Shown here one piece after another: positions 3,331-31,857 of a DNA stretch of 64,000 nt. The notes beneath the pieces were generated by a model. The model saw only the letters and a program-made list of their open reading frames with translations, ran no database searches and had not been told where the DNA came from. Both the position numbers and the translations under genes were made by a program. The DNA is from Cladocopium goreaui (taxonomy: Eukaryota; Sar; Dinophyceae; Suessiales; Symbiodiniaceae). The stretch spans positions 102,379 through 166,378 of the forward strand of contig CAMXCT020000318.1 of assembly GCA_947184155.2 (NCBI GenBank), written 5' to 3'. Position 1 is the stretch's first letter; each line of letters begins with the position of its first letter.

Positions 3331-3334
3331 GGGA

Positions 3335-8603: not shown

Positions 8604-8699
8604 TCATGTTCTGTCATGTTCACTCTTCAAACTTCCACAGTGCTCAAACATGCTCAAACTGCATCCGCGAGGCTCCACTTGAGCAGACAGCAAGTTGAC
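8604..8699 (-). CDS. P1 last exon
   Basis: AG|G acceptor, then [20 protein letters not shown] and a TGA stop at 8604-8606 after KSEHDRT. P2 has VNLLAAFGEYMIRHKL at the same place. Confidence 0.65.
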   Translation of the reverse strand, partial: VNLLSAQVEPRGCSLSMFEHCGSLKSEHDRT

Positions 8700-11600
8700 C
8701 TCGCACGTCTGCTGTCAACCCCAACACTTGAAGATCGGAAAAGAAATCCAGTCCCTGCCTAAGAAATATAAGAAGGACCAAAGTCACCGAGAGACGCGAT
8801 GGGATAAACTGTTCAACGTCTCTCTGTTGTCTGACGATTTGTTTTTTTTTGCCGGAGTCTTGTGTTGAACACTGGGAAAGCACCATCAACCAGGTACCAT
8901 CTACCAGGCCTGCGCACTCGTGAAAGATGTCAGAGACCCCGGATTCTGACTCATTAGAGGGAAATGCGGATAATTGGCCTTAGCTAACTTAGCATCGAAA
9001 AGAGACTTTCAGCGTGGCTGGATCAGCGAAAGGACACAACAATGTCAGTAAATTGGCTTGAGAACTGCAGGGCGAAAACATGTTTTGAGTCTAGTTGCGA
9101 ACATTCCGTCCTTGCCAGCTTTTATCTCCTTAGTTTCTGCACTGGAGAGTTGAAGGTCTGTGCTTCGCAAAGCAAGCCGGGCAAAGAAGTGGAAGCAAAG
9201 TTTGACCATCTTTGAAGGTTCTAATGAAGGAACACTTTCAGAGCCGGTTTAAAATCTTTTAAAGTGTTGCTCAAGTTTTGGTGATTGTCCTTGTCGTTGT
9301 CAGCAAAAGCTCCATTCAGAACCCAGCCTTCTGCGTGTCTGCTGGAAGCTCGTTCTGGCCAAGAGAGTGGCATGGTGGCTCAAAAGATGCAAATAGATTC
9401 AGATGAAATTCATTTAACCATTATTTAAATTATATATATATGAAGTTTACTTAGTACATAGTACTCGTCCAAATTCATGCCCCTTTTCGATCCTTTTCAT
9501 GTCTGTGGCCGCGAACCAGCCTCAAAGACTTGGCTTTTGTCCAAATATATGACGAGCAGCTGGACACTCCAACCTCTCCAAGCGCAAACTACAACATGTT
9601 GAGCAACAATGAGCAACACGAAGCCAAGCAAAGACTGCCTCCTTCAATACCCCACCTGACGTCACACGAGGGAAAGAAGGCAAACAAGAATGAACATATT
9701 GCATGGGATTCTTCTGCAAATAGCATGAAGGGAATTCTGAAAATTGCAGACCATACTAGATTCGATAAATGTTCGATATTGGATATTGTATGATATTGTA
9801 TTGATAGTGTATGAATTTGTGTACCTTGTTTACCAAACATTTGCCATTCAATAACACGACACATCTGAGAAGGCGGCCAGCTATTCTTCAAGACTTCCAG
9901 CTTTCTGAGCGAGGCAGCCGGCCTTCCAGCACGCCTCGATAGCGCCAGGATTCTGAATCAGGCGACATCATCGTCAAAGCAAATTTATGGCATGAATTTC
10001 CACAGAATTTCCACAGAATCTGCTACCAGAACTGCATCTATGCCTGTGGGTTTGAAGGTCGCAAAGAATCGGCTGGAGATCTGCATAATGGAAAACCTGC
10101 AACAGAAATGACAGAAGAAGTCCAGAACTCTGCACTTTCTCGGCCAATGTCCTGTGCATCCCATGTTATTCTGCCGTCGCCTGGTTATGCATCTGAAACT
10201 GCCCTGCAATGTGGGAAGCCAATCCAAACTTGTCCACAAAATACCAGGCTGCCTGAGTTGTGTTGCGCATCATTTGTTTGACTTTGTCTGTATCTCTTTG
10301 GTGCAGAAGGGTCTGGTGTCAAAATGTGTCAAATACAGGATGCTAACCGAGAAGACTACAAGATCTCAAGCACATCTATTGATACTGCAGTTGATACTGT
10401 ACCTCTTGATCTTTTTGCATCCTTTTGCTATCTTTTGATGCTAAGAATGCTAAGAATGCTAAGAATGCTAAGATGCTAAGATCATGACTGCACCTTGAAG
10501 GTCAGGAGAAATCAGTCGCTTGGAGCCACAAAAGTCCTGCAGTGCAGCCCGAGCCAAACAGTGCCATTGAGATCCATTGAGTTCATTCGACTTCACCAGC
10601 ACCAAACCAATGAACTGTCCGACTTCAGGCTGATTGGCACGTCTGTGTTGACAAACATCACCACTTGGGGAACCTGCTGGAAATGCCACAAGAGTGAACA
10701 TCCTGAGCTTGTTTGTGAACACGAACGACATAATTTACACATCAAAACAGTTCAAATCCTTCAGCACAAGTCACTACTGTACAGCTTTCCAAAAGAACAA
10801 CATGAGAACAACATGGCCTTTCGCTGGAGAATTGGCAACAAACCAGAGTTGTCCATGTGTCCTCCGTCTCCGATCTTGTACTTTGCAGCAGCCTGCTCGA
10901 GACACCGAAGTGACACAATGTGACATGTGACACAATGTGACAAAATATTTGACAATGTCATTCTGGACTTGCCAAAGGGAAAACATGGGAAAACGATGCA
11001 TTTTCATGCTTTTCCTCTGGCTACAAGAGTGACACTCTTTTTAAAAGCGGCCTTTGGGGCAGGAACTCTTCTGGAGGTGATTGGCCACATTGTCGTGACA
11101 GGAATCAGTGCCTCATTTCTCCGGGCATGTCAAAGCACATTCTGGGTTGACCATCGGATTCAGCCCAGAAAATCTGTTTAATATGAATCCATAGGGATCC
11201 ACATCCACACCTCATGGAATTCTCAAGGTTATGATATGTTATGATAGCTTTATATAGCTTATGACTTTATGAATCCATGATAATCCATATTAATCCATGA
11301 TACTCCAAGGAATCTTCGGGAATCTTTGGGATTCGGCCTGCATGGACTGGCCACCAAATTTGTTCAGGGCTTGGGAGATCATCGCAGTGAAGGCCGCGCT
11401 GCTGACTCCAATGGCCTGGAGCAGGGGATGGTTTTGGGGATGGCCTGGTTCGGTAACTGGATAACCCGCTGGATGTTGTAATATGTTATATGGATTTATA
11501 TGGTAGGATAAGGGATGTGAGGGATGTAAGGCATAGGGGTTGTAGTGATGGTAGATGATGCTAGATGATGGTAGATGATGGTAGATGATGGTAATGGGTC

Positions 11601-14600
11601 CTAGTGAGGTACAGGGCCGCAATAGCCAAGACCGATGACCATGTTAGTGTCAGTGTCGTGGTGTCTCGTGCTCTGCTTGGCCTTGGCCAAACTGAAGGGC
11701 TCTGAAGGAGATGGCATCTTTACCCCGTGTCCTGAAAAGCCACATGGCATGTTTTGGTGGTTTGATGAGGCTTGTGTCGTATCCCGTCCAAGTGCACACT
11801 CACATCGCCCTCACATCATCCTTTCATGACAGCGACAGTCGCTTTTCTCCTCCAGACTGGCCCTCATACGGAGCATCGCCGCCCAAAGCAAAGGTCTCCA
11901 CCATGCCACCGCCAACGACCTCGGAAAATTGGAGATTTGGCCGATTTGGCAGGTCAAATGTTGGTCTCAACAGTGGTATGGCATTGTACCATTTGTACGG
12001 CTTGGACAGACGCATGACACATCTCTCAGCCTGCGGCCAGCTTCACGGCTGGGATGTCTGCTTTCGCAAACCAATTGGTTGATTCCTCGTCGTAGTTGAT
12101 GTGGCCATGACCTCGGTGAAAGACATGGATTGACACATGAAATTTCACCGTATTTATAATATTTGATCATCAAATATTTACTTCTATATCTTCTATAATG
12201 TAGTTATATGTAGTCAATGTATTTGTGTTACTACAATTACTACATGAGTTTGTGAGTCCACATAATACTCAGTTACTACTCTGCCAGCTGAGAATCTTGC
12301 CACCGGAATAGAAGGGAGACCCAGAAAAGTCTGGTGACATCTGCAACGACCTTTGCTTCCAACTTTGCCAAATCCATAACAAAATATCTCAAATCCATAT
12401 CAAATATATCCAAATTCATCCAAATGAATTCCAAGTTTACAGCAAGATACTGCAAGTCTGCTATACAATGATATACAATGTATGCATGGATTTGCATGGA
12501 TCTGCTACGTACCTTCAAACATCCTTGCCACTGAAGTCGACTGAAGTTGCAATCTGTGCTCCCCACACAACTGTGTTGTCTTCAGACTCATGTCCAAGAG
12601 GAGCAAGCAAAACACCAAGCCTCAACAGAGCTTAAAATGCAAAAGACGCTAGGTCCAGCAGTCTACAAACCTGGCTCCCGTCTTTGCATGCGTCTGACTT
12701 GGTGCCAAGTTGTCTGACTCTAAGCAGGCGGCATAACAAAAGCTCTGGGACGATCTATTGGAGGCACAACAAAATCCTGACATCATCAAATCAAAAACTA
12801 TCAAAAACTGCTCTCATACTCTCTCATCCTCTCCCTGGTATGCTGATGTATGCTGGGTCTTGCAAAGGAACGGTCCTCTCTCTGTAAATGCGGGTTGTTT
12901 CGAAGAATACGTTGCAGGCTCCCCTCGTCTGATGCCATGTACCTGAAGTCTATATTATCTATGTGACTCGAAATGGCAAAACAAACATGAACCGATATGA
13001 ACCGCATGAAACAAACATGAACAAGAAGATAACTGCGCGAATAGCGTGGCCTTGGTCACAGGGCACTTGCTAGTGTTGCCCAGGGCCAAAGGTTTTAAGA
13101 GTATCTGGTCCGCCAGGCGCTATCAAGATTCATGACATGCCACTCACAGATATTCGCAACACTTTCGTCCAAACCTCGTTGAAGGTGTTTACCCAAATCG
13201 AGTGCGGATCGTCATGATTGAAAAAAGCATGCTTCAGCAAACCTCAGCGCGGTACCGTAGCACAAATCAGTGAGTAGTGCTTGTGCTTAATCAATGAGTA
13301 ATGATGAGTTGAGTACAGCAATGATAAAAATGAAAACACCGTCAGAGAAATGCGGGACGGCTTCCAAACAGCTAGATCATGAGCCAAGAGACCGGTGATA
13401 TCATGAGTAGCTGCATCCTCAGGCAACCAAAACATGCGAGAATTGCCTGACACCAATGCGACAAAAATGCAAGAATGTGTAGTAATCTGTACTGTCGGCA
13501 GACAGGAATGGCATGGAATGGCAGTAAATCTAGTAAAGATATTTTGTAAAAGGCTTTCTTTCATGTGTCCAAATTCATCTAAATTCACTCAACATCGACT
13601 CAGACTCATCATTCAACTCATTCGTCACTGTTGGGGGCTGGGTCCAATTTATATATACCCACAATATCCATATCTATTCCATCCATCAACTCAATCTAGT
13701 TCAACCCTATTCAATCTGCTTACTAATTATCAAACTGCACAGCCTATTGGTATGCCTATCCTCCTATGTTTTGACCGTGCATCACTCTGTGACGAGCTGA
13801 GTTCCACACTCCAATGGCACCGGGCCGCTTTGTAAGCTCCTCTTGTACAGCGAACATCAACGCAACACACATACAGTATACACAAATTGACGTTCAAACA
13901 TATTCAAACTACATTAACCATAAGCATACCATAAGCGACAATGTGCAACACCAAGAACATTAAGATGATTAATGGGATATTGTTGAGGCCCAAACAGCGA
14001 AACCTGTGTCCCTTTACAGGGTCTTAGCATGTTTTAGCTGTTCTTTCAATCGTGAAAGCAAAGATGCATTGGCTATTTTAGTGGATCTTCAATTTCTTCA
14101 AATGCCGTCCACCATTGCACACCCAGGAACAATCCTGCAGCCTCTCGAGAGCATAAATGTAAGATCTTGCTTGAAGTCCAACACACATGCCAACCGAAGT
14201 CATTCAGTGTCCATGTATTGGTTGGTTGACTTTCACCGTGATTCTGACATCACCTAGAAGAAATTTGTGACAAATTGTCATATTTTGTCAAACTGCAGAT
14301 GAAGCAAAAAGGAATTTTCCGCTTCCATCTCAAACCCCAGTGGCAGTCCGGCAAGGAAAGCTGCGATGGCACTGTAGTCGCTCCCAAAAGAGATTCCTCG
14401 CTCATGTGGGAGAACCTGGTATTGCAAATGCTGAAGCAGAAGCTCAAAAGCAAGAAATGAGTTGAAGCAAATAGGAACACTCGTTCTTGTTTTGCTCTTC
14501 TCACTCTTCACTCTTCCACCAACTATTCCATCTCCAAAGTTTGGGGCGATTCAATATAAAAATAAGATACAAGTTAGATTATCTAAGCATATATAAGCGG

Positions 14601-17600
14601 CATGTAGGGACCAGCAGTCCACGTTCCTCCAGAGACTGAAACCAACAAATCCACATGGCTGATGAGGCTGAGATCTTCCATCCCACGAAGAGCTCCGATA
14701 GCTGCAACCATCGCCCTTGTACTGCCGCCACTAAGGGCAACTGCGGTCTTCAGATCTTCCTCAGGTGCACTGCCTCTGATTAGTAAAAACATATGCAAGA
14801 TCTAAGCAACAGTCAGACATTCCTGTCTTGAAGGTTTACAGTGCAGTCATTTTTTTCGAAATCATTCAAACGATTTCAAATGAACCTGTCCTGCCGCGGT
14901 GGGAACTTGTTGGATTCATCGTTGATGGGAACAACGTCCGCATGAACATCTGGCATCTTCTTGTGGCACTTGCCATCATCATCAGAGCAAAAACCTTGGT
15001 TTCCACCACGATGCTAAAGAGTAGAAACTCATGCAAGGGCAAACAAGGCGATAGACCAAGACTTGATATTGAGAGGGAATCAGTTGAAGTTAAAATCATG
15101 TAATCTCGGGCTCAAGTCGAACAATGTGATGCCAAGACAGCATGTGATTGGATATGTAACGAAAGGCAGCGTCAACAGTCTGCAGGTGCATTTAAGTGAT
15201 GGTTCAGGCCAAGACAATGTGATACTTGTGCAAACAACACTACAATACAAGAGGTAGCAAGCCAAAAAGAGTCTTAACCAAAACAGTTGTACTTGTACTT
15301 TTTCAAACTACGTGTGCTCGCAAACTATCCTTTTATGATCTTTTTATGTAACCTTCACATAGATCCTCTCTCGGTTTTCTGAAAAACTATGTTCAAAGGA
15401 AGTTTAGGGGGAGAAACTTCCGTGTTACGGACTTTTAGAATGTCAGGGAAAGAGTTAGTCAAAGAAAGAGTTAGTGAGGAAAAGAGTTAGTCAAAGAAAG
15501 AGTTAGTGAGGGAAAGAGTTAGTCAGAGAAAGAGTTAGCAAAGAAACAGTTAGTCAGGGAAAGAGTTAGTCAAAGAAAGAGTTAGTGAGGGAAAGAGTTA
15601 GTCACAGAAAGAGTTAGCAAAGAAACAGTTAGTCAGGGAAAGAGTTAGTCAAAGAAAGAGTTAGTGAGGGAAAGAGTTAGCAAAGAAAGAGTTCGTCAGG
15701 GAAAGAGTTAGTCAAAGAAAGAGTTCGTCAAAGAAAGAGTTAGTCAGGGGAAGAGTTAGTCAAAGAAAGAGTTAGTCAAACAAAGAGTTAGTCAAAGAAA
15801 CAGTTAGTCAGGGAAAGAGTTAGTCAAAGAAACAGTTAGTGAGGGAAAGAGTTAGTCAAAGAAAGAGTTAGTGAGGGAAAGAGTTAGTCAAAGAAAGAGT
15901 TAGTGAGGGAAAGAGTTAGTCAAAGAAAGAGTTAGTCAAAGAAGAGTTAGTCAAAGAAAGAGTTAGTGAGGGAAACAGTTAGTCAGGGAAAGAGTTAGTC
16001 AAAGAAAGAGTTAGTAAAGAAGAGTTAGTCAAAGAAAGAGTTAGTGAGGGAAACAGTTAGTCAGGGAAAGAGTTAGTCAAAGAAAGAGTTAGTGAGGGAA
16101 AGAGTTAGTCAAAGAAAGAGTTAGTGAGGGAAAGAGTTAGTCAAAGAAAGAGTTAGTCAAAGAAACAGTTAGTCAGGGAAAGAGTTTGTCAAAGAAAGAG
16201 TTAGTGAGGGAAAGAGTTAGTCAAAGAAAGAGTTAGTCAAAGAAAGAGTTAGTCAAAGAAACAGTTAGTCAGGGAAAGAGTTAGTCAAAGAAAGAGTTAG
16301 TGAGGGAAAGAGTTAGTCAAAGAAAGAGTTAGTGAGGGAAAGAGTGAGTCAAAGAAAGAGTTAGTGAGGGAAAGAGTTAGTCAAAGAAAGAGTTAGTGAG
16401 GGAAAGAGTTAGTCAAAGAAAGAGTTAGTCAAAGAAAAAGTTCGTAGTGCAAGCGTTGTTAGTAAAGAAGAGTAGTGAGGGAAAAGAGTAACAGAAAAGA
16501 GTAGCAAAGAAGGAAAGGAGGCGTCAGGGAAAGCAGTTAGGCAAGACTAAGAAAGAGTAGTCAAGAAACCAGGTAGTCAGGGAAAGGAAAGAGTTAGTCA
16601 AAGAAAGAGTTAGTGAGGGAAAGAGTTAGTCAAAGAAAGAGTTAGTGAGGGAAAGAGTCAGTCAAAGAAAGAGTTAGTGAGGGAAAGAGTTAGTCAAAGA
16701 AAGAGTTAGTCAGGATATATGAGGTAGTCAAAGAAAGAGTTAGCAAAGAAACAGTTAGTCAGGAAAAGAGTTAGTCAAAGAAAGAGTTATAGTGAGGGAA
16801 AGAGTTAGTCACAGAAAGAGTTAACAAAGAAATTGTTCCCTCACTGTAAATGGGATTGCAAGTGGTGCTGGTGGAGGAGTTGCCGATGGAGTTTTGGAGG
16901 AAGTCTCGCACGAAATGCGTTTTTGAGAGATAGGAGATGCACGAAACCCTATGTTTTTCCCATACAAAGTCCGTCCCCGAACCTCGATGATCTACCTCTG
17001 CTGTGCGACGGTTGCGAGACGGTCTCGTGTGTGGTCGGATCATTCTCGGATCATGCTCGGATCATGGTCGGATCGGTTCCGCATTGTAAATGGGGTTTCA
17101 ACTGTTTTTCGTGCATGTGCGGTCGACAGAATTCCATTGTGATTTGCAACTGTAGGATCGTTCCCGCAATGTAAATGAGATTGCAAGTGGTGCTGGTGGA
17201 TGAGTTGCCGATGGAATTCCATTGTGATTTGCAACTCTAGGATCGTTCCCTCAATGTAAATGGGATTGCAAGTGTTGCTGGTGGATGAGATTGGTCAAAG
17301 GAAGTTTAGGGGGAGAAACTTCCGTGTTACGGACTTTTAGAATGTCAGGGAAAGAGTTAGTCAAAGAAAGAGTTAGCAAAGAAAGTTAGTCAAAGAAAGA
17401 GTTCGTGAGGGAAAGAGTTAGTCAAAGAAAGAGTTAGTCAAAGAAAGAGTTAGCAAAGAAACAGTTAGTCAGGGAAAGAGTTAGTCAAAGAAAGAGTTAG
17501 TGAGGGAAAGAGTTTGTCAAAGAAAGAGTTAGTGAGGGAAAGAGTTAGTGAAAGAAAGAGTTAGCAAAGAAACAGTTAGTCAGGGAAAGAGTTAAAGAGT

Positions 17601-20600
17601 TAGTGCGGGAAAGAGTTAGTCACAGAAAGAGTTAGCAAAGAAAGAGTTCGTCAGGGAAAGAGTTAGTCAAAGAAAGAGTTAGTCAAAGAAACAGTTAGTC
17701 ACATAAAGAGTTAGTCAAAGAAAGAGTTAGTCAGGGAAAGAGTTAGTCAAAGAAAGAGTCAGTGAGGGAAAGAGTTAGTCAAAGAAAGAGTTAGTCAGGG
17801 AAAGAGTTAGTCAAAGAAAGAGTCAGTGAGGGAAAGATTTAGTCAAAGAAAGAGTTAGTGAGGGAAAGAGTCAGTCAAAGAAAGAGTTAGTGAGGGAAAG
17901 AGCTAGTCAAAGAAAGAGTTAGTCAGGATATATGAGTTAGTGAAAGAAAGAGTTAGCAAAGAAACAGTTAGTCAGGGAAAGAGTTAGTCAAAGAAAGAGT
18001 TAGTGAGGGAAAGAGTTAGTCACAGAAAGAGTTAGCAAAGAAATTGTTCCCTCACTGTAAATGGGATTGCAAGTGGTGCTGGTGGAGGAGTGGCCGATGG
18101 AGTTTTGGAGGAAGTCTCGCACGAAATGCGTTTTTGAGAGATAGCAGATGCACGAAACCCTATGTTTTTCCATACAAAGTGCGTCCCCGAACCTCGATGA
18201 TCTCCCTCTGCGGTGCGACGGGTGCGAGACGGTCTCGTGTGTGGTCGGATCATTCTCGGATCATGTTCGGATCGGTTCCGCATTGTAAATGGGGTTTCAC
18301 CTGTGTTTCGTGCATTTGCGGTCGACAGAATTCCATTGTGATTTGCAACTGTAGGATCGTTCCTGCAATGTAAATGGGATTGCAAGTGGTGCTGGTGGAT
18401 GAGTTGCCGATGGAATTCCATTGTGATTTGCAACTCTAGGATCGTTCCCTCACTGTAAATGGGATTGCAAGTGGTGCTGGTGGAGTTGCCGATGGAGTTT
18501 TGGAGGAAGTCTCGCACGAAATGCGTTTTTGAGAGATAGCAGATGCACGAAAGCCTATGTTTTTCCATACAAAGTTCGTCCCCGAACCTCGATGATCTAC
18601 CTCTGCTGTGCGACGGGTGCGAGACGGTCTCGTGTGTGGTCGGATCATGTTCGGATCATGGGCGGATCATCGGATCGGTTCCGCATTGTAAATGGGGTGT
18701 CACCTGTGTTTCGTGCATTTGCGGTCGACAGAATTCCATTGTGATTTGCAACTGTAGGATCGTTCCCGCAATGTAAATAGGATTGCAAGTGGTGCTGGTG
18801 GATGAGTTGCCGATGGAATTCCATTGTGATTTGCAACTGTATAGGATCGTTCCCGCATTGTAAATGGGGTTGCAAGTGGTGCTGGTGGATGAGTTGCCGA
18901 TGGAATTCCATTGTGATTGGCAACTCTAGGATCGTTCCCTCACTGTAAATGGGATTGCAAGTGGTGCTGGTGGAGGAGTTGCCGATGGAATTCCATTGTG
19001 CTTTGCAACTGTAGGATCGTTCCCGCAATGTCTAGAAGGTTTCAAATGGTTCGGTGGACGAGCTGAGGACGTAATACCATTGTGTTTTGCTAGGGATTGT
19101 TGCTAATCGCATTGTAATGGCTGCGTGAACTTGCTGCAGCTTGATTCTTTCAGATTTTGCCTGCTTTCATTTTTATTTAAATTCTTTATAAAAAACGCTT
19201 CAAAACTCAACTTTTTCTGCTCTGGCGTCGAGATCCGGTTGTGGAGCTACAATTTCCGACGCCGTTGCGCGTACTTCTATTGTGTTTTGCAACTCAGTCT
19301 CTGCAGATCGCATTGTAATGGCTGCGTCAAGGTTGCTTCGTGCTGTGGCTGTATTCATAATACTATTGTCTTTTGCAGCTCGACTTCATAAATCGTCTTG
19401 GAGTGGCTGCATGAAGGCTGCGAAATAAATTTGTTAGCAGATTTTCTCCATTTTGGCACTACTGTTTTTTTGTTGCACGTAGGTTTAGAGCAGTGGGAAG
19501 TGTGGGGCGTAAAGAGTGCAGTGTGAAGTGTGAAGTGTGAAGGAAGCAGTGGGAAGTGAAAAGTGTGAAGTGTGGAGTGTGAAGTGTGGAGTGTGAAGTT
19601 TCAGTTTGGAGTGCGAAGAGCGCAGTGTGAAGTGTGAAGTGTGAAGTGTGAGGTTTGGAGTGTGAAGGAAGCAGTGAGAAGTGAGAAGTGTGAAGTGTGA
19701 AGTGTGGAGTGTGAAGTTTGGAGTGCGAAGAGTGCGAAGAGTGCAGTGTGAAGTGTGGAGTGTGGAAGACTTTGCTTCGTCTCTCGCTGAAAAAATCAAA
19801 CGGTTGTCGAGGGAAGGACACGGTCGGGACAGGGTGTCTTTGAACTATAGGTCATTTATGTTTGGGAAACTTCCGCCGCCGGCTTGCCCGGGTCTATGTT
19901 AATACTGGTATCGCAAACATCATCTAACACAATACCCACATAATTTTCTATTTTTCTATCCATCGATCGATGGGTTGATCTATGGATCGATCTATCCATC
20001 CATCCATCTATCCATCCATCTATCTATCCGTCCATCCATCTGTCTATCTGTATCTATCTATCTGTCTGTCTGTCTGTCTGCCTATCTCCCTATCTATTTA
20101 TCTATCTACCTATCTATCTACAAAAAACAAACAAGAAGGCTTGCAAGAAGGATATCAGAAAACAAGTCCATCAGGGCGCTGGCACGGCCTATAAGAACTT
20201 TTAACTTTTAACCAAGGAGCCTGGCTGGCACAAGCACTCACCATCAACACAGCGAGTTGGGCCACGGTACTGGTAGCAATATCCAAACCAACTGCACGTA
20301 CCACCGGTGCGCTGTGGACATGTCAGCAAATTCTGGTCAGGGACATTGAGAACGCACTTGCCACCTATTGCACAATATCCAGGCTGACAGCGACATTGAT
20401 TTTGGACACATTGTGTAGGCCCTCGCCAAGAACTACAACTGAAATATTTGCAGGTGCCATCTGTGTGGCCATCACAGAACCTTGCATCACTTGACGCATT
20501 GGCAGCAGTCTGTGTCATGGCCGTTTCCACGCCTGCCTTTCCCGGAGCATCGCCGTCTTTCAAAGGCTTGGCATTGTTTTGTGTCGAATCTTTGTGTGGC

Positions 20601-20866: not shown

Positions 20867-21238
20867 TGATCAATTGATCACTCAAAGATACTCAAAGCAG
20901 AAAAACTCTTCACCTTTCAGGACATTTGCAGTGGCTAATGTGTGGAAAGTTCTCTTTACATGAGATGAATGAGATGAAATAATGAATAGTGACCAGTGGA
21001 CATGGCTGAGAACCATCAACACAAGAAGATGTCAACGATGAATTGTCTTTCTTGAACCTGTTTGCTGCATTCACCTAAGCTCTGTAAACTCTGCAAAGCT
21101 GGTTAAGCGCTTTTGGCGTAAATCAAGCTGCGACAAGAAAGAGTCAAACTACGTTCAAACAAGACAGAGAATGATGCAAATAAATAAGCAGCATGGGCAA
21201 GGAGATGCAAGGAGAGAATCGTGCACGATTATAATCGA

Positions 21239-24115
21239 TTATACAAGTTTCTTGGGCAATAAAGACCAATACCTATGGCTTCTTAGTTGGCAGCCAATCC
21301 GGCACATTGGACGCCATGCAGCAGCTGACTTTTCAGCGCTCTGTTGGCACCGATCATTGAAAGAAACGCATGAACATTTCAGTGTTCGAACCTCGGCAGG
21401 GGTTTCGAGAAAATGCCAAGCTAAGAAAAGGCAGTCTTTCGTATTACACAGAGAATTTTGAATCCACAAGAAACAAAATTGCAGTGTAAGCTTGTGGCGA
21501 ATCATATACTCTCCAAAAGCTGCAAGCAGATTCACCTCCAGACTTTTCGGACAATCCCACTTCTCTACTGGCTCTAACATTTTCAATGAATCAAACATAA
21601 TCAAACTTGGCAATTCATCAGCTGGATAACGCCGGCCTGCTCAGGCGTATACGAAGTGAACTTGCCAGAGTTCTGCGAGGACCTTGCTGCTCCGTGCTTT
21701 AGCAATCCGCTCGTCGCGGTTCTCATCTTGCAGTCATCCCATGTCACGCTGAGCCCAAGGCGTTTTGAAATGAGGCCAGTTGGCAAAGCGTCCCCACCCT
21801 GCACAAAGCTGAAGAAATAGCACACAATACTGTAACACACAGTGGATTTCAAAAACAGTAGCAATCATGTGTGATTATACTATATATATAAGTACAACTA
21901 TGAAGTTGTAACTACGTATCATTTGAACAATCCTATGTAATCATATGTACAAATCAAACACATGATTGAACGTCTTGTATCATCTTCTGACATGCTGCAT
22001 TTTGCATTTGGGCAGTCTTCATCATTTGTGAAGCAGTGAAGCTGGGTTAAACAATCAAAGCTTGGCAAAACCTTACCGGTTTCATCAAAATTCATAAAAT
22101 GTGCCCAGGTGTTTAGAGCAAAGAAGTTACACTGAAATGATGGCAAGGCATGTCAAAGCTGGGGATCCGGCTGCCCTTTTCCACTTCCTGCACAGCAACA
22201 AAACCATGCACTATGGTGAAATGATGTCCTGCGAAACCTGCCATGGATGACCATGGTACGTATAACTTGGTCATTCGTTTTTGCTCCCCTCGCATCGTCC
22301 GTCTTGCGGCCTGAAGTGTTTCTGGTGGAAGGTTGACCGTGAAGCGCTTGCAGCTGTTCAAGTACACAAAAATCACAGACCTCAGCACGGCACTTTGTGC
22401 TTTGTGCATGCTCTTCAGTCAAATTCGGAAACTGCTGGGACCGCTTCAGTGTTACGTTGTGTCACCTCCTAGGGAACTCTTTCGTGGGGAACTTGCGTCA
22501 ACTACGCCACAATACCACCTGTTCGGAAAACAAGGTGTTTTCGCAAAGAAGTCTTCATGTAGGAACACCGCGTCGCTCAAGATGTTTGTTCCCAGTCGAG
22601 TGCGAATGATCGCATGCCACCAAGTGACACTCTCCAGTTGCCCTCAATGCCCCATTTGCTGTTTGCTAGCACCTCAAAGAGCGCTCACACAGATTGAAAG
22701 ATGTGCAAAGACAGGCAAATGCACGGACACCTCCATGTCTTGCTGAACAACTAGCGCTTCCCCGGACTTTCGCTTCTTCCTCAGCTCTGCTTGCATTCTG
22801 CGACAGTGTGCGACAGCAAAATTACAGGTGCTTTTCTTCTGCTCACAGCATACAGTTCCAATACGTACACATGGAACATCATAAAACAATGTGACACCTA
22901 CAATGCATCTCCCTAAAAAGGTATGAAATCATCATACTATCAAAGGCTCTCAAACTTGCATAGGAGCTTTGCCAAGTCATCAGAGTGAAAAACCTGCCAT
23001 CGGAGAAGGCACTGTAGACGCTGGAGGTGATGAAAGGATATAAAAGGACTCCAAAAACTGTCAACAAAATTGTAAAGAGATACCGCTACCGTAGGTGGAA
23101 AATCTAAACGCTAAACATCCAAAACATTCCAAAACTGTAAAAGAAAAAATAGTAAACACGATCTAAAACAATCTATATTAATGTGATTGATTGTGATTGC
23201 AAGACTGTGGCTCCGTGCCGCATGCCTGGCCTGGTTGTAGATGAGATACTCCCCAGGGTTTTCCGCGACATAGCCAAACTTGTCCAGCAAGTCATTTGAA
23301 ACCTGCTTTGGTTCTGCTTTGTTTTTTTTTTGGTTCTCAAGTTTGAAATGGGCAACGATTCTATTCAACACGTGAAGGAGTTGAGGATGTGCAGTTGCAG
23401 AAGAACAGGCCTTGTTCTTCAGGGACAACCGTAGGACGTTGCCATCGCAAAAGTCAATGTCCTGGCAATTTGTTTTCGAAGAGATTCAAAGGCTATCAAA
23501 TAAATGCTGAACCATCAAATATTCCTCCCACACCATTCATGATCAGCTTTGACATAACATGATGAAGCCTCAGCAAGCTCTCTGTTCGTCCCGAAAACAG
23601 CCACAATCTTGGGCACTTTTCTCTGCAAGAGGGCCATCCTTAGAAAACATAATATATCATAATATATCATAATATATCATAATATATCATAATATATCAT
23701 AATATATCATAACATATCAAAATGCATTGATTCGATGGACCATGCAAGCTGCCCTGTTTGCTTGCGGAAAACTGTCACACTTGAGTAAAGTGTCATGCCA
23801 GTGTTGTCGACTTCAGCACCATCCTCAATATTCAATTCCGAAACAGTGTCTGTAAAGAAAATTCAAAATGGCAAACAACTTTGCTGCACGGTTTTCTCTA
23901 ACCACCGCACTAAGCCTCCTGACACCAAGCTGATACTTCAGCGCGGGCCTCACAGCTGAGACTTACCTTGAATGCTGGCTTTAGGAAAACATTGTGGCAT
24001 AAAAAGGGCCAAAATGATAGTGATCGTAAAACCTTGTCAATTTTCACGATCCACGATATAATCTTTGCTATCTACATATTCCATTTTCTATAATTGCACA
24101 CACACACGCACACTA

Positions 24116-24146
<31 letters not shown>

Positions 24147-27100
24147 TCATTTATATATGTCGTACCAGTAGATCCAGCCGTAACGCGCAAGGCGGTGGCG
24201 AAAGTTTCAAAAATAGGAAACCTATAGGAGAGGTTTCTTGTTGTGAATCACGGATGGCAGAGCGAATCCACTGATGGACTGAAAGGTGGTTGGAGTTGTG
24301 TATTTTGGAGCGGTTACAATGGTTGCAGTGGTCACCTGGTCGGTCACCTCACCCACAACTGCTGGATGTAGTGTGGTGTAGCGCAGCTGTGGTTGTAGTT
24401 GTAGTGTAGTGGAGTTGTGGCTGTAGTGTAGCGTAGTTGCAGTTGCATTTGTGGTGGTGTGATGAATGTAATGTAATGTAATGTATTGTAATGTAATGTA
24501 ATGTAGCGTAACGTAACGTAACGTAATGTAATGTAGGGTAGGGTGGTGTAGTGTAGTTTAGTGTAGTGTAGTGTAAAGTAGCGTGGTTGTAGCTGTAGCT
24601 GTAGTTGGTGTAGTGTGGTGTAGCGCAGCGTAGCGTAGTGTAATTAGTGTAGTGCAATTACTGTAGTGTAATTAGTGTAATGCAATTAGTGTAGTGTGGT
24701 GTGGTGTAGTGTAATTAGTGCAGTGTAGTGTAGTGCAGTGTAATGTTATGTAGTGTAGTTGTAGTTGTAGTTGTAGCTGTAGCTGTAGTGGTAGTTGTAG
24801 TTGTAGTGGAGTGGAGTGTAGTGTAATTGAGTGTAGTGTAGTGTAATTAGTGTAGTGTAGTGTAGTGTAGTTGCATTTTGCAGTTGTAGTTGTAGTTTTA
24901 GTTGTAGTGTAGCGTAGTGTAATTGAGGGTAGTGTAGTGTAGCGAAGTGGAGTGTAGCGTAGTGCAGTTAGTGTAGCGTAGTGAAGTGTAATGTAGTGTA
25001 GTTGTAGTTGTAGTTGTAGTTAGTGTAGTGTAGTGTAGTGTAGGGTCGTGTAGTGTAGTATAGCGTAGTGTAATTAGGTGTAGTGTAGTGTAATGTAGTC
25101 TAGTGGAGTGTAGTGTAGTGTAATGTAATTAGTGTAGTGTAGTGTGCTATTGTGTAATGTAAGTGTAGTTGTAGTTGTACTTGCAGTTGTGGTGTAATGT
25201 AATGTAGTGGAGTGGTGTGTAATGTAGTGGTGGTTGTAGTTGAAACTGCTACAAACTCCTCACGTTTTGCTCGCTTTTGACAAGGTGCACAATCCCTTGC
25301 ACCTGCCACGCAAAACGACATCTGAACGTCCAAAAGTGGTCCAAACATTACATTTGGTGTTTTTTAACATTTTGACATTGAAATGTGCTTCGCGCCACAC
25401 GGCGTGCACTTTTTCGACATGTCAACTTTCAAAAGTGCTCCAAACCTGCGTGTGTTTTGTACATTGTGACTTCCAACTGTGCTTCGCGCCACAACGGCGT
25501 GCACTTTTTCGACATGTCAACTTCCAAGAGTGCTCCGAACGTGAGGTGTTTTTAGCTTTTTCACTTGCAAATGTGCTTCGCGCCGCAATGGCGTGCAACT
25601 TTTCATCTCTCATTTGGCCAGATGGCTCCGCATCCGCCGCTTTAGCGAGCCTACTTTTCGACCCTCCAGTACCACAAATCATTGGAAAAACACAGTGAAT
25701 CGCGACTTTCCTACCTTTTCGCGCACCTGCATCCTCTTTCTTCTCATTCTTTCTCTTCTCAGATCTTCTCTCTTCTGCTCTTCTCTTCTCTGACTCTTCC
25801 CACCTCTGCTTTTCCATCTCTCTACATTGTCGGAAGTTTGACTTCTACACTTCCTTCGATAATACAGTATATATATAGAGTTTATACAGTAAATGATAGT
25901 AAGTGTATATATTCGCGTATTAGTATTGTATCTGTATAATATTGTCATATCGTATCCCGTACACTGCATATTGACAATGCTTTGAATTTTGGTGCTGTTC
26001 ACACTGGAGACAGTGCTTTGGAGAACTTGCAACGTGCAAATCACTTCATATGAACGACAACTGCAAAGCAAGGACATGCATGGACAATAAAGCCAGCAAT
26101 AGCCCCAACTGAAACTTAATGCGCTTCTGCTGCAATGGTCTCAGGCACCAATGGCATCTTAAAGTGACATAAATTAGGAGATGGCTTAAGGTTCTAATAG
26201 CTCGACCGGTGCAGTTTGAACTTGTTCGCCTTGTTCGCGAAGTTGTTTCTTGTCTGTTACACACTATGTTCGACTCAGCCTTTGCTGGATGCCAAATGTT
26301 TCAGAACATTTATGCATAACGTTGCATAACATCTATGCAAATTTCATGTGTAGCTTAAAGGATGTCATAGGTCATTAATGACTTTGATGGGCATTGCTAG
26401 CTGCTATAGCATCCACTGACAAGCCTTCATGCTTTCATAGGTCCAAACTCTGCTTGAAAGAGTGAACAATGCTTGCTGAGCACTGCTTAGATTTGGTTTT
26501 TGTTTTCTGTCCCGGCCTCCAAGTGGAAAACTTATTCGAGGTTACTGGCCAGACATCTTTGACAGGCAAATATTCTTCAGCCTAGCATGGAGAGTGCTCT
26601 GCCACAATCTAGAGTTTGCTTTGACTCTTTGCTGGTTTTGAATCGAACCAATGCCTTTCTCCTGGCCAAAATCTCCCTGCCTCGTGGCCAATTACAAAGG
26701 AGGCAGCGCTGGTGAGCCAGCCTGCCTTCGAGGCTGCAAATGTGCAACAGGTGATGTCTCACTGGCTCGGTGAGAAACTGTTGAAAAACCAATGTTGAGC
26801 CATCGAATTCCATCGAATTCCCATAGTGCAATCTGGCGACATTAACCAACACGGAGGCGAAAGCTGCACTGCTGATACCGATTGCGTCAGCGAGGCTGAA
26901 GGCAGTTGGAGGCGCCTGCCATAGGCTTTCCAGTCAACATAAATCAACTCCGCATGCACAAATAGCAGAGTTTTGTCAACATCAGTTACAAAATTGTGTA
27001 TGAAAGCCGCAAACACGTTTGAAATTTATGCATGTTTGTGGAGGGTCTCTACAAGGGAATTCAAAATTCAATGTGATACTGCTTTGTCTTGCACTGCACT

Positions 27101-30100
27101 CAACTGTTGTGTATTCTGACACTTGATATATTGCGATGCTTTGGACGTATTTTGCAATGCAGCGATGTGTTGAAATGAGTACTGCAAGAGTGTGCCCACA
27201 GACACGCACACACACACAGACACATATACACACGCACCTTTCTTTGTTTGCGCGTGTTTCTTTTTGTGCAGGTGTTTGCGCAAGCAAAGTAGGTGGATCA
27301 AGAAGCTTGGGGCAGGCGGAGGGCAAAATAAATTCCACAGACACTGCACTGCAACTTTTGACACAGAATGCGTTTGGATAAGCAGCTAATCATCCCTGAA
27401 GGGTTGTATCAGTTGCACTGACTAGCGCATTTCTAGCCATGGGTTCTCTAGGGAAGGCAGCACCCACAGTCATTTACTAGAGCTTGCCTTGTAACTGCAC
27501 TGATAACTGATAACTAATATATTTTCGTAGAACATGGAGTTGCGAAATGATCACTTTGTATCCCAGTAAGATGCCAAAGTGAATGACTCAGATGTATTGC
27601 ATTGTGTTGTGTACCAGACTATGCCCGCATGCCCGCGGATGTGCCGAAATCTGTATATATTGCATAAGCACATTCATACATGTTTCATCATGTTTCATCA
27701 TGTTTCAATGTCTCTCCCAGTACTCAAGTACTTCTGTCATGCGAGCTGATTTTCACGCATCCCATCAACTCTGCACTCTGGAGTCTCCTCCATTTCAACG
27801 GCTTCTCCGCCCATTTGGCCTTGTGCCTGAAATTCAACAAATCAATGAGGTGACAGCATGTGACAGCACAAATTTGATGGGCAAAATTTCATGAAACGAT
27901 GAGAAGCTGACGGACGAGGGTGCAGAACCGCCAAACGCGAAACTTTCCTCAGGCACTCTCACAATGCCATCTTTGCAATCTCGCAGTCCCCTACTGGCTC
28001 GCAAACAGAACATCCAAATATTTGCAGCATTTTGAAGCAATTTGTACCAGCGCTTTGCATGGCATAGCGCTTTGATATCGAATTTGTTGCATTGAGTAAC
28101 ATGGAGAAAGCATGAGGATCCTGAGGTAGCGGCAACGAAGCCACCACCGACCAAGAATTCTCGATTGTCTTGCCCTTTATAGTGGACCAAACTATCCTGG
28201 CAACAGGGGACCTGTATGTGTTCTTTTGCCGGAGGGCAAACCGGAGACGGATGGTCCAAACTTCACTCTGCTTGGGCAAAAAAATAAAAGATTACAAAAG
28301 CATACAAAAGCACCTTCAAGATTGTAGTCTACACATCAGTCGAAATGAAACTCCTGCTGTCACGGATTGCATACATTGGCATACATTGGCGGCTCCTTTG
28401 GATAGAAGGGAGATCCAGTGTAGTCAGGCGACATCTGAAGAGACCTCACAATTTGTAAGTTGAGCTTCAGAGAAATCATTAAAACATATTAAAACCTATT
28501 AAAACCAAAGCAAACATTGGAATCAGCATGGAATCAGCATGGAATCATGCTTTGATGCTTGCTGCTTGCTGCTCTCTGGGTGAACGAACACTGCACTTGT
28601 CTCTGTTGCGAGCAAGCCGACCGGGGCCAGTATTGTGCCACCCATGATGTACCTTGGCAGCTTTGGTATGCAGCCATTGGAGCCATTGGATGCCGTTGGA
28701 GTTGGAGGAATTTCTTGTTTTTGATGGTTTTTGTTCTCCCCTACTTACATGTTTCACCTTTGTGTCTTGTTTTGATCATGATTGGCCACTCTCAAGCTGC
28801 TTGCAGTGGATTTCTTGGTAGTATTGAAGCTCGATATGTCCAGCAAAGCTTTCAAGGCCAGAACGTCTTTGGACGCAAAGGATTGGGCACCTCGCTACAC
28901 TGAGACGCTTTATGAAACTGTCTTGGCAAGAAGCCTTCCCCGCAGTTGCCGTTTACATTTGTTTTACCTCAATTTACCTTTGAAAGATGCAGAACGCCTG
29001 TCAAGATCTGTCAAGTCCATAAGTAGTCATAAGTAGTGATGAGTCTTGCAAGTCTAAAATGATCTAAAATGTCTAAAACATAAAACAGTCTCATCGGGTC
29101 TACAATATTCACTTCGCATCGCTAAGTTTCCTGCTTGGAACTGATCCGAGCTGAGGCTGGGGTTTCGTCTCAAGATTTCTTGAAGACTTTCTTCGTTGGC
29201 TGCCATGAATTGGCTCCTGACGCCAGATACGTGTGGATCATGCGTAGATCTGTGGATCGCGGCAGATCCTCTAAAATCTCAATCTGAATCTGTCTGACTT
29301 CAAAACAACTGCCAACAGTTTGCTGGTCACTCATACCGCACCATGCCGCACCTGTTGGCCAACCCGAAGGGCTCCAGAACAGCTTTTGCGTAGCTGTCAA
29401 TCCACATTTCATGTGGATTGTTAAACTTCACCTAGGATGTATTTGAAGAAAACAAATCGGAATAGCCGCACTATGTTTAAGTAGAAGTATGAGTCCATAG
29501 ACCCTGCAAGCAGTGCAACAGTCAAGTTGCATTGTGCCACAGCAAGGAAGTAATGCTTGTAGTGGCCACAGCCTCAGGCTCGCATTCATTTTCAAGCCAC
29601 CATGGAAACAGAACTAGAGAATCACCAAAATGAAATGAGAAAATAAATCTGCAATGAATCTGCACCAAGAAGTGAAGCGAAGTGAAGCGAAGCGAAGCGA
29701 AGCCAACAAATCAATTCGGCCAGAAAATTTGGCCTCGGAATCCTGGGAACCCAACACCAAGCCTGGCTGGCGTCTTAAGCAGCCGATCCATAGTCAGTTC
29801 ATTTGGGGTGGTATCTTCGCCGAGTAGTTCCTGCACACTCGTTTGAAGATGTTTGAAGCATGAACATATCACAATAATTTACAATGTCCTTGTATCCAGC
29901 GTGGGGCAGGCTCATGAAGGCCAACCACATCCCAACAAATACTATGGTTGGACATGATCATCAGCGATAATTTATAGTGGTTACAGGCTGATGCTGATGC
30001 CAAAAAAAAACATCGTTCTATTTGATCCTGTCAGAACACCTGTCCTTTATGCTGACGTCCTTGGCAAACATGTAGATAGAAGAAGCCCAAGTTCCACCAG

Positions 30101-31857
30101 AAACACTTGAGATCGCATCTACATGTGGGATTAATTTCAAACTCTCCAAAGCTCGAAGGACCCCCATGGTCACAGTAAGAGCGCGAGAGCCACCACCACT
30201 GAAGCAAAGTCCAGTGCGAAGATTGACCTCCAGGGCAGATCTGGAAAGAGTCTGGAAAGAGATTGAAAGAATCTTTGGCCCTGGACAGCATTACTCCACA
30301 AGTATGGTCCGAGAACAAAACCTTTTGGGCACTTTCTGCCTGGGAGGATGGGAAGTTTCTCTGCTGCAAATTCACAGGAACCACATGTGCCTTGATCCTC
30401 GCTTTGGGTTGGTGGCAGCTGCCATCATCGGCACTACAGTATCCTGCCTTGCAAACGCATCCTCCGTCGATGCAGTCCACTGCTCCTCGATATGAAGAGC
30501 ACCCGAAGAAGCGACAACTGCCCCCAGTATCTCGATTGCAGGTATCCGCCACATGAGCGACATTTTCTTGTTTACGCTCGTTGCAAACACCAGCTGTGGC
30601 ACAAAAGCCTGGCATGCAGCGACACTGCGACGATTTGCACATTGTTGGCCCTCGAGAGGACGAACAAGACCAGAATCGGCAGCTTCCACCAGTGTGCGAA
30701 TCGCAGTAAAACTTGGATGCGTTGGTGGACACCAGTGTGTGATCACTCTCTTGACTGCCCAAAACATCTGAAGCGTTTACGCCAGCTCTGCCCTCCGACT
30801 GCTGAGAGTGATTGCTGTCGGCATCGCTTTCCCTCAGAGGTCGCAGCGTTTTGCAGGTCCAGCTTTGGAGAGTAAGGAGTAGGAAACTCTATACAGCTTT
30901 GGTTACAAGATTATACAATTTAGGTTCAACCGAACCGATTACTGGGTGTCAGCGACGTTGTCTCTCCCTCTTGACATCATGCAACTGTACTATTCACAGT
31001 CGTGTAGCCCACCAAAAGGAACTGACAACGTCAAATTGAGTGACATACTTTGTTTGGTGACCGCAAGATACAGTATGTGCTGGTATTTTCATACAAATTT
31101 GACAATCGTTTCCTTTTTCTGTGTCATGTCAGTCATCATAGATCCACTTGCTTAGTTACGTGCCACTTTCACTAGAATTGTATAATACTGTCAGGGAGAT
31201 TCCTATGCAACTCCCCCTGTATTGTGCCCAAAGGCGCAATCGGCAGCCTGGAGGATTTGAATCATTTTGAACCTACATCATCTACATCTACAATGTCGTT
31301 ACAAAGTCTGTTGCAAATCTGCTGGCGAAGGTCTCACTCAGGCGTTTGGCCCGACGCTGAATCCAGCAAGCTGCATCTGGAGAGCTCCCACAGCTTTGAT
31401 CCTCTGAACAAAGCTGAAACCTCACTGAAACCTGATCCTGTTGAACATTCGGAATATTTCGGAATGCCAAACTTGAGAGCAAGCGGGAGCGCTCCTTTTC
31501 CCACCTAGACCACCACCTACTTTGGAGTTTTCAGACCCTTTAAGCTCACTTTGTTCGCAGCAAACAACATCAGCCTGCTGGCCGGCTTTTGTAAATAACG
31601 CCCCCAAACTGGAAGCCATGCAGCACCATAAAACAGCAGCAGGTTCCATACAACATCGTACAACGCATGCTGACGCTACGTTTCCTGATTTCTTGGCCTT
31701 TCCACGAATGGCGTAAAATTGAACATTGTCAATCCTGACGGTGTGATTCTTATCAGTCCTCCAAATGCAAGCCCGCTTGCAAATCATCGAACTCCACACT
31801 GCTCCCGTCGGCCCAGAGCAAAAAACATGTAAAGCTCAGGCCGAGCAAAGGCGACAT
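21239..31857 (-). CDS. Gene P2: secreted 8-Cys-module / patatin-like acyl hydrolase (split gene)
   Basis: Span including introns. Exons placed: 31773-31857, about 31336-31421, 30340-30832, 30060-30227, about 28780-28890, 28590-28652, 28396-28444, 28134-28174, 27912-27947, 26847-26915, 23779-23849, 23569-23622, 23411-23461, 23231-23302, 22311-22380, 21637-21682, and a last exon from 21535. Same layout as P1: signal peptide, linker with WIQRRAKR, two 8-cysteine modules, acyl hydrolase with nucleophile SSVSGGTW. Instead of DGG it has EDGAEVDNTG. Joins such as ATETSAV-SLQMSPDYTG, VGGGFV-ESFAFGGSAP and FTSYTPEQ-VNLLAAFGEY restore family motifs in phase. Role inferred as for P1. The 3' end is uncertain: the open frame continues to TAA at 21239, but a donor may cut it earlier. 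Confidence 0.8.
22311..22380 (-). CDS. P2 exon: FVYLNSCKRF
   Basis: G + SVIFVYLNSCKRFTVNLPPE then TLQ, AG|G to a GC donor. Corresponds to P1 [15 protein letters not shown] plus NELPADTQK, which P1 splits over two exons. Confidence 0.75.
23231..23302 (-). CDS. P2 exon: PGEYLIYNQ
   Basis: Exactly 24 codons, VSNDLLDKFGYVAENPGEYL then IYNQ, AG|G to a GC donor. Confidence 0.75.
23651..23720. repeat. (AATATATCAT)7 tandem repeat
   Basis: Six perfect and one variant 10-bp copies in a P2 intron; the array begins only 28 nt upstream of the splice acceptor of the exon at 23569-23622. Confidence 0.95.
23779..23849 (-). CDS. P2 exon: altered DGG motif
   Basis: Preceded by a clear pyrimidine tract and CAG. 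Reads TVSELNIEDGAEVDNTGMTL then YSS; joined to RKVPKIVAVFG it has the same length from DN(S/T)G to RKVP as P1. The usual DGG is DGA. Confidence 0.8.
24102..24150. repeat. (CA)(CT)(AT) compound microsatellite
   Basis: CA, then CT, then AT dinucleotide runs in a P2 intron. Confidence 0.9.
24365..25242. repeat. (GTAGT)n pentanucleotide repeat field
   Basis: About 880 bp of degenerate GTAGT/GTAAT/GTTGT words, including subfields of GTTGTA and AATGT. In the P2 intron between exons 26847 and 23849. Confidence 0.95.
25330..25620. repeat. 94-bp tandem triplication
   Basis: The word GCTTCGCGCCRCAAYGGCGT starts near 25387, 25481 and 25575, each followed by CACTTTTTCGACATGTCAAC or a variant. Period 94 bp. 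In a P2 intron. Confidence 0.85.
26847..26915 (-). CDS. P2 exon: IGISSAAF motif
   Basis: 23 codons, APPTAFSLADAIGISSAAFA then SVL, AG|G to GT. P1 has [13 protein letters not shown] at 11354-11444. Confidence 0.8.
28590..28652 (-). CDS. P2 exon: TILAP strand
   Basis: G + YIMGGTILAPVGLLATETSA + GT, 63 nt, AG|G to GT; joins in phase to the SLQMSPDYTG exon at 28444. Confidence 0.75.
30060..30227 (-). CDS. P2 exon 4: nucleophile exon
   Basis: VNLRTGLCFSGGGSRALTVT, then MGVLRALESLK and HVDAISSVSGGTWASSIYMF. Carries the intact oxyanion loop SGGGSRA and the nucleophile serine of SVSGG. Begins at AG|G; ends at AAG before GA. Confidence 0.85.
30340..30832 (-). CDS. P2 exon 3: two 8-Cys modules
   Basis: Module 1 CDSHTGGSCRFWSCSSSRGP... 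and module 2 CNRDTGGSCRFFGCSSYRGA... share the spacing C-x7-C-x4-C-x8-C-x4-C-x-C-x4-C-x5/6-C with P1. Ends with AHVVPVNLQQRNFPSSQ at a GC donor. The 5' boundary at AG|G 30833 is the best of several. Confidence 0.75.
31336..31421 (-). CDS. P2 exon 2: QRRAKR linker
   Basis: Reads CSEDQSCGSSPDAACWIQRR followed by AKRLS; the CxWIQRRAKR word matches P1 [13 protein letters not shown], which places it before the Cys modules. Confidence 0.5.
31773..31857 (-). CDS. P2 exon 1: signal peptide
   Basis: ATG at 31857; MSPLLGLSFTCFLLWADGSS is a typical signal peptide, followed by an acidic segment (EFDDLQA) and a GC donor. Phase to exon 2 could not be verified. Confidence 0.55.

Follow-up and report, generated by a model that had tools for sequence, protein, structure and literature searches.

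A tandem pair of Cladocopium goreaui genes for candidate exported acyl hydrolases with N-terminal eight-cysteine modules

Results

Two neighbouring genes share one architecture

The 64,000-nt stretch of Cladocopium goreaui DNA analysed here (contig CAMXCT020000318.1, positions 102,379 to 166,378; referred to below as the window) is free of any N and reads as intron-rich nuclear DNA. On its minus strand lie two tandem neighbours, P2 (31857 to 21601) and P1 (20866 to about 8901), each of which encodes, from N- to C-terminus, a hydrophobic segment, a basic QRRA(Q)KR site, two eight-cysteine (8-Cys) modules and a Ser/Asp acyl hydrolase, the order and strand of these parts being identical in the two copies. 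On balance we favour the reading in which P1 and P2, a pair of tandem duplicates, code for exported lipid acyl hydrolases with Cys modules at their N-termini. We have established directly the gene pair, its shared architecture and conservation at the protein level, the membership of the hydrolase in a bacterial family and the predicted fold, similar to that of cytosolic phospholipase A2 (cPLA2), of one bacterial member.

The motifs named in the original prediction were found on the minus strand where it had placed them, most of them by motif scans (two sets) and the rest by frame reading; ESFAFGG, which had been given for both copies, is exact in P2 and reads ETFALGG in P1. Stop-to-stop fragments of P2 were then compared with P1 genomic DNA. 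A collinear series of conserved exons was seen, the strongest among the matches listed being the Cys exon (E 7e-30), with the SGGxxR..SVSGGTW core hydrolase exon at E 1e-16, the SPFY exon at E 8e-7 and other exons weaker. The end of module 2 and the linker also matched (E 3e-7); they are contiguous in P2 and split in P1 by a 5226-nt intron exactly at 20221/14994. Exon 3 of P2 carries both modules and the linker uninterrupted, and an 88-nt intron separates it from the catalytic exon, which is the best evidence that modules and enzyme form one protein. That they are parts of one gene had been predicted, and the anatomy of both copies places them together.

At the DNA level the P1 and P2 regions shared a single 45-nt match of 80% (blastn, E 1e-3). 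Since DNA similarity is confined to this one stretch, the copies are old and have been conserved as protein. Differences at codon positions 1, 2 and 3 numbered 32, 39 and 70 in 104 aligned codons of the Cys part, and 186, 125 and 250 in 367 aligned codons of the hydrolase; with fewer differences at positions 1 and 2 than at the third, these counts point to selection on the protein in both parts.

The layout matches no named family in Pfam, NCBIfam or the PDB, as had been supposed, and full-text literature searches on the protein or its parts and on splice sites brought up no description of such a protein in the top-ranked listings and abstract openings covered. The architecture is thus new as far as these searches reach; the enzyme fold is a known one and the chemistry ordinary.

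The hydrolase domain has rare bacterial relatives

The original assignment of the hydrolase to the patatin/cPLA2 clan stands, and the catalytic Arg, Ser and Asp are in place in both copies. The Pfam Patatin profile (PF01734, gathering score 27.7) scored P2 right at the cut-off, with 27.8 bits for the joined model and 27.5 bits for the exon alone, over 50 of the 191 profile positions, in the first block. For PLA2_B (PF01735, gathering score 23) P1 and P2 gave about 13 bits at most among the scores shown. When PDB sequences were searched with the profile of the pair, cPLA2 delta was found (E 3e-4).

A plasmid search with P2 returned 34 records at E 0.1, mostly over the first block only and often annotated as patatin-like, and reached two proteins annotated as hypothetical, from Sulfitobacter sp. 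D7 (WP_162931929.1) and Ruegeria pomeroyi (WP_011242114.1). A genome search that drew on these two proteins then gave 148 pattern matches and 15 confirmed loci (L004-L018) from Alphaproteobacteria, Myxococcota, Pseudoalteromonas and others. A hidden Markov model (HMM) built from 17 bacterial proteins only recognised the joined models at E 4.7e-58 (P2) and E 3.2e-42 (P1) with Z = 100,000, and among 2943 unjoined fragments of the window it matched four at E < 0.01, all inside P1 or P2, with no sign of a third gene copy. Alignments of bacterial members with P1 and P2 (350 to 546 columns) show about 23-31% identity. At Pfam E 0.01, 10 of the 15 bacterial members matched Patatin and 4 of the 15 PLA2_B, which places their family in the patatin/PLA2_B clan. 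NCBIfam returned one unrelated match at 0.24 and, when the 15 members were searched, one unrelated match at 0.006 in 1 of them. By its sequence, then, the hydrolase belongs to a rare, patchily distributed bacterial family for which NCBIfam has no model.

The distribution was followed in two groups. Around G001, the genome in which L015 lies (a Polyangia record), full-length matches (E < 1e-50) occurred in 3 of 140 genomes of its phylum; around G002, the Hoeflea genome with L008, they occurred in 4 of 190 genomes of its class, and both counts include the centre genome; any match at E 0.001 was found in 17 of the 140 and 15 of the 190, mostly short and over the first catalytic block. With the hydrolase alignment A1, 24 pattern matches in viral contigs and 25 in genome contigs yielded no confirmed member, and no P1 hydrolase was found in phages.

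In the 15 aligned bacterial members G36, G37, G38, R40, S68, G69, G70, W72, D338, G340, N344 and G346 (L015 numbering) are invariant; P1 and P2, compared at the motifs, keep R40, S68, D338 and N344 and, apart from the departures given in the Discussion, the others as well. The bacterial proteins have in common with P1 and P2 a domain that runs from SGGxxR to DGGxxxN and beyond, with the same catalytic residues, whereas their loci lack 8-Cys modules and introns, and some are probable lipoproteins while others are leaderless. A maximum-likelihood tree of 23 rows joins P1 and P2 as sisters (100/99), with a stem of their own that lies outside each bacterial clade. We rejected a claim of gene transfer from bacteria: the pair branches beside several bacterial clades and inside none, in a tree without other eukaryotes.

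An AlphaFold2 model of the bacterial protein L015 had a predicted template modelling score (pTM) of 0.83 and a mean predicted local distance difference test score (pLDDT) of 72.9. Its best Foldseek match in the PDB was human cPLA2 (E 5e-9), followed by PlpD (6e-4). Group IV cPLA2 (1cjy, 5iz5) is thus both the best PDB sequence match of P1 and P2, with equivalents of their Arg, Ser and Asp, and the best fold match of L015; it differs in being cytosolic, whereas P1 and P2 are apparently exported, and identity in the L015 fold alignments is 12-14%. No C2 domain was matched in the regions scanned with Pfam, namely the N-terminal half of P1, the Cys exon of P2 and two early hydrolase joins. PlpD and the patatin-like phospholipases (PF01734) differ from P1 and P2 in their downstream motifs.

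The 8-Cys modules

The strict 8-Cys spacing was matched three times in the six frames of the window, at 30705-30583 and 30540-30415 in P2 and at 20476-20354 in P1, and not once in 200 surrogate sequences, each of 64 kb and generated by a first-order Markov model. In the fourth module (P1, 20320 to 14966, across the intron) a C-x4-C gap of the other three is widened to C-x5-C, so that the fixed spacing originally described holds for three of the four modules and differs at one gap in the other. An HMM built from the four modules recovered, at E < 0.01 among the 2943 window fragments, these four (one as two separate parts) and nothing else.

Relatives of the module were sought in Pfam, the PDB, viral contigs and bacterial loci, eukaryote collections lying outside this range, so that absence elsewhere is not implied. 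No Pfam family reached its cut-off, PDB sequences gave no match at E 10, 33 and 3 pattern matches in viral contigs left none confirmed, and the best value among 4073 fragments of bacterial loci was E 0.11. The EB module (PF01683, gathering score 24.3) scored 6.9 to 13.4 bits; to our eye the module end CxC..GYC....C looks like epidermal growth factor (EGF) or EB modules, whereas the eight Cys of P1 and P2 are spaced differently. The predicted model of the two modules was poor (pLDDT 63.6, pTM 0.36), and its top Foldseek matches were EGF-like and not significant (best E 0.21). On this value we dropped the idea that the Cys pair folds like EGF or scytovirin. As no relative or confident fold was found, the proposal that the modules bind a substrate, wall or membrane stays a guess. 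The module is most likely the part that holds a surprise; if its fold turns out to be new, the module would count as a novel extracellular domain.

N-termini, export and processing

The best 9-residue hydropathy mean within the first 40 residues is 1.96 for P2 and 2.60 for P1, and neither hydrophobic N-terminus has a lipobox. The basic site reads R-A-K-R in P2 and A-Q-K-R in P1. Disulfides need an oxidising compartment. Hydrophobic N-termini, paired Cys modules and a basic site together suggest a secretory route, perhaps with zymogen cleavage. Export of P1 and P2 is plausible on these features; export, cleavage and function are what we infer.

Among the 17 bacterial relatives, four (L005, L006, L008 and L009) have a lipoprotein-type lipobox Cys at residue 25, which makes it probable that some members are exported; L004 and P0001 have a hydrophobic start and L007 is ambiguous. 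Two of the four lipobox relatives, Hoeflea poritis and Kiloniella spongiae, bear species names derived from coral or sponge.

Gene models and splicing

Seventeen exons were assembled per gene, and C-terminal exons with stops were recognised separately (Table 1). The 32 internal donors of both models comprise 9 GT, 14 GC, 8 GA and one that fits no rule, and all 32 internal acceptors are AG, followed by G in 26; these counts are not independent proof, the models having been built under these very splice rules. Symbiodinium introns are described (PMC4083563) as starting with GT, GC or GA and ending in AG, after which a G often follows; the splice style of P1 and P2, together with the composition of the DNA, fits a dinoflagellate of this kind. 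A dinoflagellate spliced-leader relict, sought by its sequence pattern, was found nowhere in the window. Neither joined model contains a stop, which follows from the way the joins were made.

Of the splice sites proposed originally, 20221/14994 and 30340 were retained, while 30227 is better moved to 30251, an acceptor that restores SALEVNLRT against SAPEEDLKT in P1. P1 had been run to 8604; a stop at TAG 8903-8901 is likelier, and P2 would end at TGA 21603-21601, both last exons being weakly supported. The TPEQA last exon of P2 is collinear with P1 (E 0.056 in the fragment comparison), and the WPHF part matched a bacterial C-terminal HMM at E 0.85 (P2) and 2.6 (P1). Another C-terminal reading of P2, FTVNLPPETLQA (about 22350, E 8.6), gave way to the TPEQA exon. 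A WGIEG exon near 22657 in P2 and 9657 in P1 lies outside the joined models, from which a few further C-terminal exons are probably absent.

Table 1. Exons of P2 and P1, with P1 intron 1
Gene	Feature	Position	Strand	Remarks
P2	Exon 1: start ATG, hydrophobic signal-like N-terminus	31759..31857	-	
P2	Exon 2: short Cys-containing stretch, IQRRAKR basic site	31334..31431	-	3' end uncertain
P2	Exon 3: both 8-Cys modules (30708-30577, 30543-30409), linker	30340..30862	-	
P2	Exon 4: SGGGSR and SVSGGTW catalytic core	30045..30251	-	Bacterial HMM E 4.7e-27
P2	Exon 5: ELLGEDTTPNELTMDRLLK	29756..29830	-	Ends partly by eye
P2	Exon 6: NNPHEMW	29352..29431	-	Collinear with P1
P2	Exon 7: FMAANEESLQEILRRNPSL	29135..29216	-	P2 versus P1 E 7.8e-6
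P2	Exon 8: VPNPLRPKTF	28859..28890	-	By eye
P2	Exon 9: IMGGTILAPVG	28590..28652	-	By eye
P2	Exon 10: QMSPDYTGSPFY	28396..28444	-	P2 versus P1 comparison
P2	Exon 11: LVGGGFV	28134..28196	-	Frame reading
P2	Exon 12: ESFAFGGSAP	27912..27947	-	Frame reading
P2	Exon 13: SLADAIGISSAAF	26801..26915	-	Bacterial HMM E 8.5e-5
P2	Exon 14: catalytic-Asp segment EDGAEVDNTG	23795..23849	-	P2 versus P1 comparison
P2	Exon 15: MALLQRKVPKIVAVF	23560..23638	-	3' end fits no donor rule
P2	Exon 16: DIDFCDG to DKFGYVAENPGEYLIYNQ	23231..23461	-	P2 versus P1 comparison
P2	Exon 17: VFHSDDLAKLL	22948..22993	-	P2 versus P1 comparison
P2	Last exons: WPHF and SQNSGKFTSYTPEQAGVIQLMNCQV, stop TGA 21603-21601	21601..21798	-	Weak individually
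P1	Exon 1: ATG, signal-like N-terminus, LQRRAQKR, module 1, most of module 2	20221..20866	-	
P1	Intron 1 (GC-AG), 5226 nt	14995..20220	-	Many repeats, of 16 nt and larger
P1	Exon 2: last two Cys of module 2, linker	14886..14994	-	P2 versus P1 E 3.4e-7
P1	Exon 3: SGGSTR and SVSGGTW catalytic core	14599..14775	-	Bacterial HMM E 1.4e-17
P1	Exon 4	14336..14415	-	Ends partly by eye
P1	Exon 5: DDPHSIW	13137..13242	-	3' end uncertain
P1	Exon 6	12876..12942	-	P2 versus P1 E 7.8e-6
P1	Exon 7	12730..12776	-	By eye
P1	Exon 8: GVLLAPLG	12567..12620	-	By eye
P1	Exon 9	12301..12350	-	P2 versus P1 comparison
P1	Exon 10	12068..12111	-	By eye
P1	Exon 11	11853..11919	-	Frame reading
P1	Exon 12: AIGVSSAAF	11338..11468	-	Frame reading
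P1	Exon 13: catalytic-Asp segment	10818..10892	-	Bacterial HMM E 1.4e-5
P1	Exon 14	10608..10673	-	Frame reading
P1	Exon 15	10504..10536	-	Frame reading
P1	Exon 16	10181..10312	-	P2 versus P1 comparison
P1	Exon 17	10044..10096	-	P2 versus P1 comparison
P1	Last exon, stop TAG	8901..8978	-	Weak individually

Intron 1 of P1, which splits Cys module 2, contains at 15415-19060 tandem arrays of 16 nt and repeats of 200-240 nt up to 96% alike, and a long simple CTACA-type array occupies 24371-25240 within a P2 intron. Short tandem duplications lie near several exon-intron borders (for example 26820-26797, 11345-11280 and 10490-10440), as if direct repeats flank the introns.

Discussion

P1 and P2 probably encode, judging from the features of the predicted chains, exported hydrolases of zymogen type with disulfide-rich N-terminal binding modules. 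The hydrophobic N-terminal segment would take each chain into the secretory pathway, where a short pro-segment may be lost by cleavage after the basic site. The two disulfide-rich 8-Cys modules would fold ahead of the cPLA2-like hydrolase at the end of the chain. By homology to cPLA2, the Ser of SVSGGTW would attack the lipid ester after activation by the Asp of DG(G/A), and the SGGxxR loop would hold the oxyanion and the phosphate. The Cys modules would most likely hold the enzyme where it acts, be it a vesicle, a food vacuole, the cell surface or the membrane of a partner.

Several observations weigh against this reading. The hydrophobic N-termini, judged by hydropathy, are short, and 10 of the 17 bacterial relatives have neither a lipobox nor a clear hydrophobic start, so that export is not a rule of the family; its hydrolase domain would be able to work outside the cytoplasm without needing to. 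The bacterial proteins used to build the HMM had been detected through their likeness to P1 and P2 in the first place. The predicted fold is that of the relative L015, and its TM-scores are modest (0.46-0.47 on the query) with a large root-mean-square deviation, which makes the match a likeness of fold rather than a close structure in this model. G-x-S-x-G is the strict patatin nucleophile elbow motif, and both copies instead have S-V-S-G-G; both also have SP for the invariant TP (Ser for T227) before the YTG/FSG motif, and P2 has Ala for the invariant G340 (DGA, where bacteria have DGG). P1 has no Pfam Patatin match, has Ser for G38, the third Gly of SGGGxR (SGGSTR), and sits on a long branch (1.8 against 0.5) that leaves its placement unsure; for these reasons it may have changed or lost activity. 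The exon joins, finally, were picked by eye so that each model agreed with the other copy and with permissive GT/GC/GA-AG rules, and the donor of P2 exon 15 fits none of these rules.

The best-placed alternative, which we nevertheless think rather unlikely, is that the enzyme acts within the secretory or endosomal system (a vacuole, the plastid envelope or a trichocyst-like vesicle) on the lipids of its own cell, with the Cys modules serving as a device for folding or stability. The anatomy would be the same, and acyl hydrolases of the clan often remodel lipids of their own cell; the conservation of the modules at the protein level, however, suggests a specific surface rather than filler. Decay or loss of catalysis, in one of the genes or in both, is improbable. 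The long branch, SGGSTR, missing Patatin match and repeat-rich intron 1 of P1 and the exon 15 junction of P2 could be read in this way, but the catalytic Arg, Ser and Asp are kept, the joined exons (by construction) hold no stop, and differences between the copies are fewer at codon positions 1 and 2 than at the third. Two separate products, namely a secreted Cys-rich peptide from an independent gene formed by the Cys exon and a cytosolic hydrolase without a leader from the gene beside it, would accommodate the stop that the unspliced P1 Cys exon meets soon after 20221, the 5.2 kb rich in repeats that parts it from the rest and leaderless bacterial relatives such as L010, L014 and L015, but are very improbable given the single 88-nt intron between complete modules, linker and hydrolase in P2, the module-2 end and linker on the P1 exon adjoining the hydrolase (E 3.4e-7), and the like order and strand of both copies.

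These genes connect a rare and uncharacterised family of bacterial cPLA2-like proteins with a pair of eukaryotic genes whose disulfide-rich module is apparently new. They thereby offer a concrete candidate for an enzyme that attacks or remodels lipids beyond the dinoflagellate cytosol, in feeding, symbiosis, or wall or vesicle traffic. A bolder picture, which we regard as unlikely, is of protist-specific secreted zymogen phospholipases in which a bacterial-type extracytoplasmic cPLA2-like domain is joined to a new 8-Cys disulfide fold directing it towards the membranes of other organisms, whether prey, bacteria or an animal host; cleavage at the basic site would free it, and tandem duplication would keep it diverging.

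Other features of the window

Just upstream of P2 and on the same strand, an uninterrupted open reading frame (ORF) of 434 amino acids (32532-33836, minus strand) encodes a malate/L-lactate dehydrogenase (Ldh_2, E 5e-109). A probable copia-type long terminal repeat retrotransposon occupies 47366-54539 (minus strand), with 168-nt direct repeats 99% alike and 7 kb apart, an RVT_2 ORF and sub-threshold aspartyl protease matches. A further ORF at 59853-60380 (minus strand) gave sub-threshold P-loop/NACHT-like matches. At 1600-3424 on the plus strand there are 15-nt tandem repeats with overlapping plus-strand open frames, and the GC skew is strong at 2001-4000.

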